A stretch of DNA of 49,852 bases from a virus, in the IMG/VR virus record IMGVR_UViG_3300046375_000022, positions 1-49,852 of that record; one strand, written 5' to 3'. A program made the position numbers and the translations under genes. This document shows, piece after piece, positions 22,633 through 38,733 of this stretch. Under the pieces are notes generated by a model. It saw only the letters and a list, made by a program, of their open reading frames with translations. It was not told the origin of the DNA and made no database searches. Positions within the stretch are counted from its first letter, which is position 1. Each line of letters begins with the position of its first letter.

Positions 22633-23586
22633 TCAATTTGCGATCGCGTTGACGCGTGCCAGTGTTTGCTTGAGCCAAGCTTCCGGTTTAGCGAGCATCT
22701 CCGCTTGAGCTTGGGAATTGCTATAGGGGAAGGGAACCACGATGTCAGACTCTCCCGCTCCCCAAAGTTGAGCATGCGCGCGGATAGCGGCTGGTGCGCA
22801 ATAGTCGCTATAGGGATACAAGAGCGACGGCCATGACAATTCACCGCTGAACGTTCGCTCGCATGCGTACAAGAGCCCGCGCACACTCGCTTGGTGACAT
22901 AACCAGTAGGACAAGTCAGAAGCACTGACCGGTTTTGGGAGTTTAACCATCACGCTCCAATCAAACGATTGACCGGACAAGCTCCCCTCTGAAAACTTTT
23001 TCCGGCCGGAATTAATCGCGTAGACGTCCACGCTGCGAGTTTTAGACAGCTGCAATGCTAGCGCGCTGATTAGTGCGCCACGCTTGGCAAGCTGTTCTGC
23101 ACTGAACGTGCAGCTTGACGCCATACCAACGAAAATTCGGATAGGCCTAGTGTCGCTGACTTGGTTAACCAAGCGACGCATGCTCATCGGGTCACCCGCA
23201 ACGAATGCTGGCACGTCTGGGAACGCACCAGCAACGTCAGCTTGCCACGAAGGGAAGCAGACTTGGACGTCAAGCTTTTCCGCGCGTGCACGCTCTGCTT
23301 TAATCAGCTCAACATTATCCATTAGGCCTGCCGTGGCGCAGGCGATTGCCTTTTCCGGTGAAAACTCGCCATCGATCCATCCGCGTGAATTTGGCTTGAC
23401 ATAAGCTTCTAACCATTCGCGAAGAATAGGCTCGTCCTTAAAGTGCTGCGCAATCTGGGAGGTTGAAAGATACTTGAGGCGAATAATTCGCTTTTCCAGA
23501 TCAATTTCGCGTTCGGGCTGTGCTGGTGAATCCTTGGCTTTCACCTTGCGCGATTTGACTTTGCCGATAGGAGATTTCTCGCTCAT
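22633..23586 (-). CDS. VWA/CobT-like partner of the AAA+ ATPase (DUF7192-like)
   Basis: 317 residues. After a basic N-terminal 30 residues and a helical part, residues 150-200 read IRIFVGMASSCTFSAEQLA followed by a helix and VDVYAIN. This is the beta-alpha-beta start of a von-Willebrand-A-like fold in which the usual MIDAS DxSxS is replaced by MASSC. Later YWLCHQASVRGL and a Trp/Tyr-rich end follow. It starts 1 base after the ATPase stop, the arrangement known for MoxR/CobS ATPases and their VWA partners. It probably acts as the substrate adaptor of that machine. Confidence 0.6.
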   Translation of the reverse strand: MSEKSPIGKVKSRKVKAKDSPAQPEREIDLEKRIIRLKYLSTSQIAQHFKDEPILREWLEAYVKPNSRGWIDGEFSPEKAIACATAGLMDNVELIKAERARAEKLDVQVCFPSWQADVAGAFPDVPAFVAGDPMSMRRLVNQVSDTRPIRIFVGMASSCTFSAEQLAKRGALISALALQLSKTRSVDVYAINSGRKKFSEGSLSGQSFDWSVMVKLPKPVSASDLSYWLCHQASVRGLLYACERTFSGELSWPSLLYPYSDYCAPAAIRAHAQLWGAGESDIVVPFPYSNSQAQAEMLAKPEAWLKQTLARVNAIAN

Positions 23587-23587
23587 A

Positions 23588-24859
23588 CTAATTGGCTCCC
23601 CCGCTGATTTTCGCCCAATCGGCTTCGTTGAGACCTTTACGGACGCAAATATCGACTACGCGTTCCCAAGGCCTGCCAACTGCGAGCAGAGCGTCGCCGT
23701 TAAACGTCGCGCGCGGGCTGACAAGATGTTCAACGCCGTTCGCGTTCGCCTTAGCGCGCACACTCTGGACGTACGCGCACCAATCTTGATTGGAGCAGAG
23801 TGCACGCTCGAGCAGCTCGTCCGTATCCCAAGGAACGCGCAGGAAACGATCCATGAACGCAGCATCCTGGCGGAAACGACCAACATAACCGCCGTCTGGT
23901 CCTCCCCAAGTATTGGATGCTGCGAGCACAAAGCAATTTGGATGACGCGCAATCGGCTCATCTACCCCTGGAAAATCATATTTCCCGTTTGCCAGCGCCG
24001 CGTTGAACGCTAGACACGCGCTAGGGAGGGAAGAATCTACTTCATCAAAAAGATACACTCCCCCCTTCTCATAAGCTCTGCGAAAGGGCGTGTTGATAAT
24101 GCGTCCGTTCGCATCGATAAAGCCGCGAAGCTTGTACTCAGAATCAATCGCTCCATTGAAATAGAAGGGTAAGCCAAGAGATTCGGCTGCCTTTTCGGCT
24201 GCCGTCGTTTTGCCAGTACCAGCGGGACCAACTAGCCAGAAGTTTGCCCGGTGAGTCTGTTTAGTTGCTTCGAACGCCAAGATGTCTGCTAGCAAGTCAT
24301 CGAACGCCTTGTGGCGTAGTCCGCTCACCTCGATTGGAGCGCGCTCACTTACTTCAAAGCGCACAGTCTTGGATGAGCCTTTTAGTTCCTCTGCAAGATC
24401 ATTGCAGCGTTCGTTGAATGCTACAAGCGCTTCCCCTATCTCGCGATTGTAACGCTCTTTAGCTTCCGCGTTCACGCGGTCAACATAGGCAACCATTTCC
24501 TCGCGATACTGCTCGCAAGTTTCGCCCACAATCCCTTGCACTTCGCTCTTGTTTACGGTCCCATTCGGCAAATAACCCTTAAGCGCTTCCGCTAAGGTTG
24601 CCGCTAGGCTGTCAGCTTGAGGCGAACGTGGTTGTTCTGGCGCAATGGGAGCAGAAAAGCCAAACTCCGTTCGCTCTCCCATGATAAACGCCACCAGATC
24701 GCTGGCCTTGGCTGCGCTCCCAAGCCAAGTTAGAGACACGCTAGATGCGCGTTCCTTATGCGCTGTTCGCGCTATGATGCGCAAGGGGTCACGTCCCATT
24801 GCTTCAAGTTCGGTCCGGGAATAGGTCAAGTTCCCGATCGTTACTGTTTCGTTGGTCAT
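23588..24859 (-). CDS. MoxR/CobS-type AAA+ ATPase
   Basis: 423 residues. Walker A GPAGTGKT near 211-218, Walker B YLFDEVD near 271-277, sensor-1 type AASNTWG near 313 and DRFLRV (arginine finger region) near 337. The N-terminal 200 residues hold helices and a coiled coil (about 95-175). The family unfolds or remodels target proteins together with a VWA protein; phage versions are often annotated cobS. The downstream gene is such a partner. Leader contains AACCTAACCAACAC rather than a Shine-Dalgarno. Target unknown. Confidence 0.8.
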   Translation of the reverse strand: MTNETVTIGNLTYSRTELEAMGRDPLRIIARTAHKERASSVSLTWLGSAAKASDLVAFIMGERTEFGFSAPIAPEQPRSPQADSLAATLAEALKGYLPNGTVNKSEVQGIVGETCEQYREEMVAYVDRVNAEAKERYNREIGEALVAFNERCNDLAEELKGSSKTVRFEVSERAPIEVSGLRHKAFDDLLADILAFEATKQTHRANFWLVGPAGTGKTTAAEKAAESLGLPFYFNGAIDSEYKLRGFIDANGRIINTPFRRAYEKGGVYLFDEVDSSLPSACLAFNAALANGKYDFPGVDEPIARHPNCFVLAASNTWGGPDGGYVGRFRQDAAFMDRFLRVPWDTDELLERALCSNQDWCAYVQSVRAKANANGVEHLVSPRATFNGDALLAVGRPWERVVDICVRKGLNEADWAKISGGAN

Positions 24860-25069: not shown

Positions 25070-25159
25070 AATTCAGGATAAATTTAACTTTTACTTCGCT
25101 TCGCTGCGCTTTACTAACGCTGCGAGAAGTCAGTTTTAAGCTATCGGCTAATCTTTGTC

Positions 25160-25188
25160 AAGCTTTAATAAGATTTATTAAGCTTTAC
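25160..25188. promoter_or_regulatory. Divergent control region, AAGCTT inverted repeat
   Basis: AAGCTT at 25160-25165 and again at 25180-25185 enclose TAATAA/TTATTA, giving an almost perfect palindrome. On the minus strand it reads GTAAAGCTTAATAAATC, the best copy of the dispersed AT-rich motif. It lies between the leftward block (start 25069) and the rightward gene at 25253, so it may be an operator or bidirectional promoter. TTGTCA at 25156-25161 is a possible -35 for rightward transcription. Confidence 0.5.
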
Positions 25189-25252
25189 TCAACGCTAAAG
25201 CAGACCAAAGAAGCTTGCTAGCACGCCAGCAAGTGAGCTAACCTTGGCAACC

Positions 25253-32172: not shown

Positions 32173-32199
32173 TTAAGTACCTTATTATAAGGAACTTAA
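32173..32199. promoter_or_regulatory. 27-base palindrome upstream of attP
   Basis: Left arm TTAAGTACCTTAT and right arm ATAAGGAACTTAA match in 12 of 13 positions around a single central T. It lies 12 bases before the tRNA-like attachment core. AT-rich symmetry fits an operator or an accessory site of the recombination complex. Confidence 0.55.
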
Positions 32200-32210
32200 T
32201 GATAATCAGC

Positions 32211-32268
32211 GCCAGACTTAGGATCTAGTCCAGCAATGGGTGCGGGTTCGAATCCCGTCCTCGGCAAA
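32211..32268 (+). other. attP core: 3' part of a tRNA-Leu(TAG) gene
   Basis: From CCAGA (32212) the sequence reads like the 3' portion of a class II tRNA: anticodon loop CTTAGGA with anticodon TAG, a long variable arm (TCCAGCAATGGGT), T-arm GCGGG-TTCGAAT-CCCGT and acceptor strand CCTCGGC plus discriminator A (32266). No 5' half or matching GCCGAGG is present, so it is not a functional tRNA. Position 140 bases upstream of the integrase start is typical of a phage attachment site that restores the host tRNA gene on insertion. Confidence 0.8.
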
Positions 32269-32327
32269 CCCCTGAAAACCAGCAATTTACTGGTAAATTT
32301 CCGAAGAGTATGATTTGGTAAGCTTTA

Positions 32328-32344
32328 GTAAAGCATAATAAAAT
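32328..32344 (+). promoter_or_regulatory. Dispersed AT-rich motif, attP-integrase copy
   Basis: GTAAAGCATAATAAAAT lies between the attachment core and the integrase promoter. It may be a regulator site or an integrase arm site. Confidence 0.4.
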
Positions 32345-32361
32345 AATGTAAATATAAAGCG

Positions 32362-32400
32362 TTCCGCCCCGTTGACAGTGGCGGAATTACAAGATATGAT
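32362..32400 (+). promoter_or_regulatory. int: Integrase promoter with overlapping operator
   Basis: TTGACA (32372-32377) and TATGAT (32395-32400) with a 17-base spacer form an almost consensus sigma-70 promoter. The -35 box is bracketed by the inverted repeat TTCCGCC (32362-32368) and GGCGGAA (32380-32386), placing an operator over the promoter. The GTG start at 32406 is only 5 bases after the -10 box, so the transcript would be leaderless or nearly so. Confidence 0.75.
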
Positions 32401-32405
32401 ATCTG

Positions 32406-33605
32406 GTGAGGATACCGAAAATCAACCCAAACGGCCACGATCTTCCGCCTGGATTTCGTCGAATCGTTTCCGAGATAACAGGCAAGGTCACTTTCGAAGT
32501 TTGCGCCGGCAAGCTTAACGGGATTAAAATCAGGAGGCAATTTGGCGAGGTGGCTTTCGGATCCGAAGCCGTGGCTCTTGCCGCCGCAAGAAACTGGATG
32601 CAGGACAAGAAAGCAGAAATCAAAAGCGACCGGTCCGCCGTCCTTGGCATCACCGATCGGGACCGTCTTGTCTACTCCGAAGCGCTCGAGCGGCTTAAAC
32701 CCTTCGGAAAGACCCTGCTCCAGGCCGTCAACACCGCGATCGCGGTTTATAAGGAAGAGGTCGGCATGAGTCCCATGACGATGCGGGACGCAAGCGCCAG
32801 GTTCCTTGAGCACAAGGGCCTGGAAAACTGCCGCCAGAGCTATCTCGATAACGCCAAAACCAGCATGAACGCGATCCTCGAACGGTTTGGAAATAAGCTT
32901 GTTTCTCAGGTCACGACCGACGACCTGCAGGCGTGGCTCCTCAAACGCAATATCAGCCCCGTCACCTGGAACAACTGGCGCCGGGATCTGCGGGTTTTCT
33001 TCAACTTCTGCATCAACGAACCCAACCGCTGGACCAAGTCCAACCCAGCCGCCGCCATCGCGATTAAAAAGACCGACGATGAGGAAGTCACGGTCCTCAC
33101 TGTCGATCAGGCCAGGAAAGTTTTGAGGTCCGCGATTCAAAGCTGCGCCCGGCAGATCCCCTGGCTTGCGCTTGGAATGTTCGCCGGGCTGCGGCGCAAC
33201 GAGGCGGACGCCGCGCAGTGGGAGGACATCGACTGGGACCAGAGCGTCATCAAGGTCCGCTCGACAAAGGTTCGTTCGGCGAGCTCCCGCTATGTGCACC
33301 TGGCCGACGCGGCCAAGGAGTTCCTGAGCCTGTTTAAGGGGGAAAGCGGCCCGATCGCGACCGGCCCTTATGCCAGACGCGACGACCTAAAGAAGCTCTC
33401 AGAAGCAACCGGGATCGACTGCGTATCGAACATTTACCGGCATAGCTTCGGATCCTACTACCTGGCGATGCACCAGGATCAGGCGGCCACGATGTTCCAG
33501 ATGGGACACCAGAACGCCAAGACGTTCATGGACTGGTACCGCAAGCCGGTTCCTGGTATCGTGGCGCACGCATATTGGGCCATCCGGTCCGAATCTCTTC
33601 GCTAG
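32406..33605 (+). CDS. int: Tyrosine integrase
   Basis: 399 residues. N-terminal part (1-105) arm-binding/zinc-free; core-binding SAM-like domain about 115-215; catalytic domain with Arg in AGLRRNE near 262, Lys region TKVRS near 288, the HxxR box as NIYRHSFGS near 341-349 (first His replaced by Asn), second box MGHQNAK near 364, and nucleophile Tyr in DWYRKP near 377. It mediates site-specific insertion at tRNA-Leu. Start GTG 32406 fits the promoter. The stop falls in GCTAGC and overlaps that of the convergent gene. Confidence 0.85.
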   Translation: MRIPKINPNGHDLPPGFRRIVSEITGKVTFEVCAGKLNGIKIRRQFGEVAFGSEAVALAAARNWMQDKKAEIKSDRSAVLGITDRDRLVYSEALERLKPFGKTLLQAVNTAIAVYKEEVGMSPMTMRDASARFLEHKGLENCRQSYLDNAKTSMNAILERFGNKLVSQVTTDDLQAWLLKRNISPVTWNNWRRDLRVFFNFCINEPNRWTKSNPAAAIAIKKTDDEEVTVLTVDQARKVLRSAIQSCARQIPWLALGMFAGLRRNEADAAQWEDIDWDQSVIKVRSTKVRSASSRYVHLADAAKEFLSLFKGESGPIATGPYARRDDLKKLSEATGIDCVSNIYRHSFGSYYLAMHQDQAATMFQMGHQNAKTFMDWYRKPVPGIVAHAYWAIRSESLR

Positions 33606-34386: not shown

Positions 34387-35643
34387 ATGACCGAACAAGC
34401 CATCGACAGCGTGGACGGAGAAGTCACCGCTGAAGTAACCAGTGAAATTCTCGCTCCGAGCGCTCTGGAGGCAATCCAGAGGGCCGAAGTCGATATCGCG
34501 ATAACGACCGCCAAGCGATACCCGCGCGATATCGCCAGGAGTGTCAAAATGTGTCGGGAACTCGCCCTGCGTAACCCGCAGATCGCCGAGCGCTGCAACT
34601 ACGCCGTGCCCCGAGCCGGCAAGAAGATTATCGGCCCGAGTGTCCACTTTGCGCGCATCGTCGCCTATTCCTGGGGTAACGCCTCCGCGCTCTCGCGCGT
34701 CGTGGGCTGCGACCACGAGAACGCCCATATCCAGGGGGTCTTTCACGATCTGCAGACAAACCTCCGCATTGGGATAGAAATGGACTGGCCGGTCCAGGCG
34801 CCGAAGGAGCCGAGCCCGGAGCGTTGGAAAGACCAGATGACACTCGCCAAGCGGGCCGGCGCCGCGGTGGGCCTGCGAGTGGCGATCTTTAATGTCATCC
34901 CGATGGTGCTTTTTACCGGCATCGCCGAAGAGGCCAAGGTTGTCGCCGCCGGCAACGAGAAGACTTTCGAGGACCGGCGCAACGCGGCGATCGCCGAATG
35001 CAAAAAGCTGGGTGTGACTCAAGGGATGATCTACCGGACGCTCGAGCGCAACGGCCTGGAGGCAATTACCACCGACGACCTGATCTATCTCCACGGGCTG
35101 CTCACCTCGATCTCGGACGGGACATTGACCGTCTTTGATGCGTTCGGGCCACCGGAAAAAGCGGCCGTGAAAGCCGAGGTCCCCAAGCCCAAAAGCACCA
35201 GGACTGTCGACGTGAAGGCTGAAAAGCAACCGCCGGCACCCGAGACGAAAACGCCCAACGGCGAGACGGAAGCGCCAAAACCTGAGACGAAACCCGAACC
35301 TCCCAGCGAAGTGCCGGCTGCTAGCGAAACGACAACACCACCCGAGCCAAAGCAGGAACCGCCTCCGCCTCCGGCCAAGATTCAAAAGCCCAAGCCGCCG
35401 CCGCCGGCGCCAAAACCCGAACCGCAGAACCCGGTCACGGCGATCCGCGCCAACCTTGCCCAGGCGAACCTCACCGAGGCCCAGCTCATCAGCTGGCTCA
35501 ACGACATCGGAACCGTTCCGGACGGCACGAGCACCTTGGAAGAGGTCAACGCGAAGTGGCTCAAGATGGTCCTAGAGGACTGGAACGGGATCCTCGCGCA
35601 GGTTACTGACTTCCTGAAAAGCGCCGCTGCCTCCTTCCCATGA
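34387..35643 (+). CDS. Phage recombination protein, single-strand-annealing-like
   Basis: 418 residues. Residues 28-230 follow a conserved phage family: AEVDIAITTAKRYPRDIARS, CNYAVPRAGKKIIGPSVHFAR, then DLQTN and RNAAIAECKKLGV. Members sit beside phage exonucleases, and the folding pattern is compatible with annealing proteins, but the biochemical role is inferred. From 260 to 360 a Pro/Lys/Glu linker (PEPKQEPPPPP) connects to a helical C-terminal domain of about 65 residues. Start of a compact operon; overlaps the exonuclease by four bases (ATGA). Confidence 0.6.
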   Translation: MTEQAIDSVDGEVTAEVTSEILAPSALEAIQRAEVDIAITTAKRYPRDIARSVKMCRELALRNPQIAERCNYAVPRAGKKIIGPSVHFARIVAYSWGNASALSRVVGCDHENAHIQGVFHDLQTNLRIGIEMDWPVQAPKEPSPERWKDQMTLAKRAGAAVGLRVAIFNVIPMVLFTGIAEEAKVVAAGNEKTFEDRRNAAIAECKKLGVTQGMIYRTLERNGLEAITTDDLIYLHGLLTSISDGTLTVFDAFGPPEKAAVKAEVPKPKSTRTVDVKAEKQPPAPETKTPNGETEAPKPETKPEPPSEVPAASETTTPPEPKQEPPPPPAKIQKPKPPPPAPKPEPQNPVTAIRANLAQANLTEAQLISWLNDIGTVPDGTSTLEEVNAKWLKMVLEDWNGILAQVTDFLKSAAASFP

Positions 35644-38600: not shown

Positions 38601-38611
38601 CTTGTTCAAAT

Positions 38612-38685
38612 AGCAGGGTGGACAAGAGGACTAAGTCGCCTGGCTCATAACCAGGCCATCGCGGGTTCGAATCCCGCCCCTGCAA
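38612..38685 (+). tRNA. tRNA with anticodon CAT, initiator-like
   Basis: Acceptor AGCAGGG/CCCTGCA (first pair A-A, unpaired), D-arm GAC/GTC with GG in the loop, anticodon stem CCTGG/CCAGG with loop CTCATAA, variable CCATC, T-arm GCGGG-TTCGAAT-CCCGC. Discriminator A at 38685; CCA is not encoded (CCC follows). The mismatched 1-72 pair and A11-T24 are initiator-like, but only two of the three G-C pairs of the anticodon stem are present. Elongator Met or Ile(CAT) remain possible. Confidence 0.85.
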
Positions 38686-38733
38686 CCCAAAAATTTTAGG
38701 CGTTGGCACCGCCGGAGAAACGTTAAGACAAAC

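Follow-up and report, generated by a model that had tools for sequence, protein, structure and literature searches.

The stretch of DNA analyzed here (the window) is the virus record IMGVR_UViG_3300046375_000022, which comprises 49,852 bases, is classed as linear, and encodes a tail fiber, an endolysin, a terminase, a DnaB-like helicase, an exonuclease, and an integrase. The last of these genes (32406 to 33605, + strand) encodes a tyrosine integrase of 399 amino acids that matches PF00589 (Phage_integrase; 7e-10) and the integrase family phrog_1 (1e-37). It has a GTG start codon and begins 140 bp downstream of a partial tRNA-Leu gene that lies on the same strand. The phage also carries a tRNA gene of its own, tRNA-Met with the anticodon CAT (38611 to 38689), which is preceded by repeated short G+C-rich stretches. 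From its sequence relatives, our guess is that the phage inhabits soil. The terminase on a contig of 4557 bases from a different metagenome (IMGVR_UViG_3300047630_000003) is 100% identical to the one in the window. On the minus strand, at 22633 to 24859, the window contains two genes, one for an ATPase that matches phrog_249 ("porphyrin biosynthesis") and one for a protein of phrog_1909.

Positions 32212 to 32266 (CCAGACTTAGGATCTAG TCCAGCAATGGGT GCGGGTTCGAATCCCGT CCTCGGC A) make up the 3' part of a tRNA-Leu of class II whose anticodon is TAG. All of the elements lie on the + strand. The anticodon arm (32212 to 32228) has the loop CTTAGGA (32217 to 32223), within which the anticodon TAG, at 32219 to 32221, identifies the isotype as tRNA-Leu. 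It is followed by a V-region (32229 to 32241) with the stem CCA/TGG and the loop GCAA, a complete T-arm (32242 to 32258), the acceptor 3' strand CCTCGGC (32259 to 32265), and the discriminator base A (32266). A 5' tRNA half is absent at 32212 to 32266. Pairing fails at the 5' edge of the anticodon arm, where C32213 faces A32227, and the genuine tRNA sequence therefore probably begins at 32214; the predicted attP common core extends from the anticodon stem to the discriminator base (32214 to 32266, + strand; about 53 bp). The T-stem includes a G-U wobble (G32242/T32258), in view of which the phage copy of tRNA-Leu(TAG) may differ from the host copy.

When the window was scanned for the structure of class II 3' halves, this segment was the single match, and 60 Markov-shuffled windows yielded none. 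The sequence GGTTCGAATCC occurs twice in the window, in the partial tRNA-Leu and in the tRNA-Met gene at 38611, compared to 0.00 copies expected. The region was also aligned to intact tRNA-Leu(TAG) genes of two IMG/VR phages and of two plasmids, one from Peribacillus and one from Bacteroides; the sequences became similar at the anticodon arm and remained so up to the tRNA 3' end, with no similarity upstream. The partial gene was reported by neither ARAGORN nor Rfam because its 5' half is missing; the complete tRNA-Met was the only tRNA that Rfam recognized in the window. We also built chimeras in which the 5' halves of real tRNA-Leu(TAG) genes were joined to the 3' part from the window, the acceptor strand being made complementary before the run, and ARAGORN called tRNA-Leu(tag) in three of the four. 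The anatomy, the scan, and the chimeras thus bear out the first-pass annotation, which had recognized the 3' part of a class II tRNA with the anticodon TAG beside the integrase and had placed it at 32211 to 32268, correct to within a few bases of the refined core.

The core is bordered by further elements on both sides. Directly to its left lies a near-perfect palindrome of 27 bp (32173 to 32199; TTAAGTACCTTAT-t-ATAAGGAACTTAA) with 12 of 13 possible pairs, which is possibly a protein-binding site of the left arm. Between the core and the integrase gene, the A+T-rich right arm (P'; 32267 to 32345, + strand) contains putative arm-type integrase sites and resembles the corresponding arm of a related phage (L003; see below), with a local alignment score that was equalled in 1 of 1000 shuffles. 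The best promoter-like site ahead of the integrase gene, a sigma-70-like TTGACA-17-TATGAT with 11 of 12 matches (32372 to 32400, + strand), ends 5 bases ahead of the start codon, and the integrase mRNA might therefore be leaderless.

Only two contigs with relatives of the integrase were found in IMG/VR, IMGVR_UViG_3300050821_010443 (L003) and IMGVR_UViG_3300012202_000002 (L002). Their integrases are 61% and 41% identical to that of the window, respectively, and their terminases are 90% and 68% identical; judged by the terminase, both belong to the same phage group as the window, and a terminase scan recovered further contigs of this group, although no new integrase region came to light near it. 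At the homologous place upstream of the integrase gene, each of the two carries a partial tRNA that extends from the anticodon arm to the 3' end (5128 to 5181 in L003 and 4390 to 4450 in L002). Their attP sites thus occupy the same place as that of the window but are derived from tRNA-Leu(CAA), whereas that of the window is derived from tRNA-Leu(TAG). The right arms of L003 and L002 are also similar to each other, with an alignment score that was reached in none of 1000 shuffles. One T-T mismatch is common to the T-stems (GTGGG/CCCTC) of both partial tRNA-Leu(CAA) copies; it reflects either the sequence of the host gene or an alteration that the two phages have in common.

These relatives bear on two other accounts of the locus. 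Proviruses are present in IMG/VR, and the partial tRNA could in principle be an attL or attR at which phage DNA in the contig gives way to host DNA. However, the half-tRNA is present in a single copy in the window, it is not accompanied by a 5' half, and Blast matches to L003 and L002 were obtained on both flanks of the core. Since phage DNA flanks the core on both sides, the site is an attP rather than an attL, an attR, or a host junction, and we regard a junction as extremely improbable. Alternatively, the segment could be what decay has left of a tRNA-Leu gene carried by the phage, unrelated to integration; many phages carry tRNAs, and this one has its tRNA-Met gene. Yet the partial genes in the window, L003, and L002 are all truncated at the same point, in the anticodon arm, all lie beside the integrase gene, and represent two isoacceptors, a pattern that random decay would not produce. 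The V-arm, T-arm, and acceptor strand of the 3' part in the window are, moreover, intact. A decayed remnant is therefore very unlikely.

The isolated phage nearest to the window by integrase, as determined by tblastn, is an Akkermansia phage, and the sole match to the exonuclease was also to an Akkermansia phage. The Akkermansia muciniphila phages Chantilly (ON453895) and Moulinsart (ON453896) encode integrases about 25 to 28% identical to that of the window, which likewise adjoin a tRNA 3' part. Unlike the window, their records are prophages with both ends, and their targets are different: the terminal direct repeat of Chantilly (57 bp) contains the 3' part of tRNA-Asn(GTT), and that of Moulinsart (83 bp) contains the 3' part of tRNA-Met(CAT), the isotypes having been assigned by visual inspection of the anticodon loop. 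In both cases, the repeat lies beside the integrase gene. Its first base coincides exactly with the first position of the anticodon loop (base 32), and it continues through the 3' end of the tRNA. The right arms of L003 and Moulinsart are also similar, with an alignment score that was reached in none of 1000 shuffles. In Akkermansia phage DTMo-2021a, a T-arm search revealed no tRNA half, and no long end repeat was found.

The locus thus combines a partial tRNA that runs to the 3' end, an adjacent tyrosine integrase, and a layout common to relatives. Taken as a whole, it is very probably best explained as an anticodon-type attP, integration of which into the host tRNA-Leu(TAG) gene would rebuild the tRNA. 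The earlier proposal that this attP derives from tRNA-Leu(TAG) is accordingly well supported, both by the anatomy and by four comparators of the same layout (L003, L002, Chantilly, and Moulinsart). In such a model, the integrase would recombine the attP core with the same stretch of the host tRNA-Leu(TAG) gene; by comparison with the Chantilly and Moulinsart repeats, strand exchange would most likely occur within the seven-base anticodon loop (32217 to 32223). The cut would fall in the anticodon arm of the host gene, whose 5' half, joined immediately to the 3' part supplied by the phage, would restore the gene. The lysogen would thereby retain a working tRNA at the integrase end of the prophage, while the original host 3' fragment would be displaced to the opposite end. 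The tRNA-derived attP marks the phage as temperate and allows its integration site to be predicted to the base: in future genomes, those of Verrucomicrobiota foremost, we would expect a tRNA-Leu(TAG) gene that has been interrupted and then rebuilt.

Sites of this kind are known. An attP in which a tDNA fragment restores the target, and an anticodon-centered class of tDNA sites, have been described (PMC4383910). The class A sites of Islander (PMC4383910) and the window both have a tRNA 3' fragment that extends from the anticodon arm to the 3' end and lies beside a tyrosine integrase gene in the orientation that rebuilds the tRNA; there is no difference of substance between them, the host attB of the window phage not having been found. 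In mycobacteriophage Omega, attP lies in tRNA-Leu(CAA) and has a 44-bp common core (PMC10865867). Like the core of the window, the Omega core holds the 3' half of a tRNA-Leu and rebuilds the gene, although the phage and host are different and the target is Leu(CAA). Mycobacteriophages also provide the precedent for tRNA-dependent lysogeny, in which the host tRNA is disrupted by integration and its role is taken over by a tRNA that the phage carries and that matches the target in isotype; the common core is then only about 10 bp (PMC10865867). The window phage does carry a tRNA gene, but this is its only one and encodes tRNA-Met, not tRNA-Leu, and the core, at about 53 bp, is long and extends to the tRNA 3' end. 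Because of these two features, tRNA-dependent lysogeny does not fit the locus, and we give it almost no credence.

The first-pass annotation had further held that the segment provides a direct handle on the host, whose tRNA-Leu gene should contain the same 55 or so bases, and had suggested searching host genomes for the core and for prophages ending in it. Neither was found, and this part of the annotation is not borne out. The exact 40-mer at 32216 to 32255 had no match in 84,980 species genomes or elsewhere in IMG/VR, and a relaxed core pattern, with the V-arm left mostly free, had none in the same 84,980 genomes. Likewise, no prophage ending in the window core and no attL or attR of this phage was detected. 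Since these genome scans accept exact pattern matches only, they would overlook a host copy that departs from the pattern at a few positions, and attP and attB cores can indeed differ by a few bases; the attP core of Boilgate, for example, has five differences from attB in 43 (PMC10865867). The null result therefore does not refute tRNA-Leu(TAG) as the target. A degenerate pattern matched two unrelated phages in IMG/VR, each time in a complete tRNA-Leu(TAG) among other tRNA genes, and a DNA search of plasmids and phages with 61 bases returned generic tRNA genes only, most of those checked being tRNA-Leu. Comparison of the terminase, the helicase, and the protein encoded at 34387 to 35643 with isolated phages indicated no single host phylum. 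The integrase and exonuclease, both nearest to Akkermansia phages, and the likeness of the L003 arm to that of Moulinsart weakly suggest a host among the Verrucomicrobiota.

The arrangement is otherwise that of an ordinary, well-supported attP of a well-known kind, and the switch of isoacceptor among related phages is the point worth keeping. On balance, we lean slightly toward a scenario in which this integrase clade moved between the tRNA-Leu isoacceptors TAG and CAA but retained its right arm and its crossover in the anticodon loop, its members being uncultured soil phages of Verrucomicrobiota with distant Akkermansia relatives at tRNA-Asn and tRNA-Met. If this is true, the clade could reveal how integrases acquire new targets. 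The window phage and its relatives make up a small data set on shifts between tRNA targets.

An 18-bp motif, TTAGTAAAGCATAATAAA, was also observed in the window, where 11 copies have at least 14 of 18 matches, compared to none in 20 randomized windows. One weak copy is present in L003 and none in the other relatives. The sites in the window, at 1427, 25154 to 25191, 26290, 32314 to 32342, 33859, 34355, 39109, and 40991, are mostly intergenic and close to gene starts, and the motif may represent a family of repressor operators.
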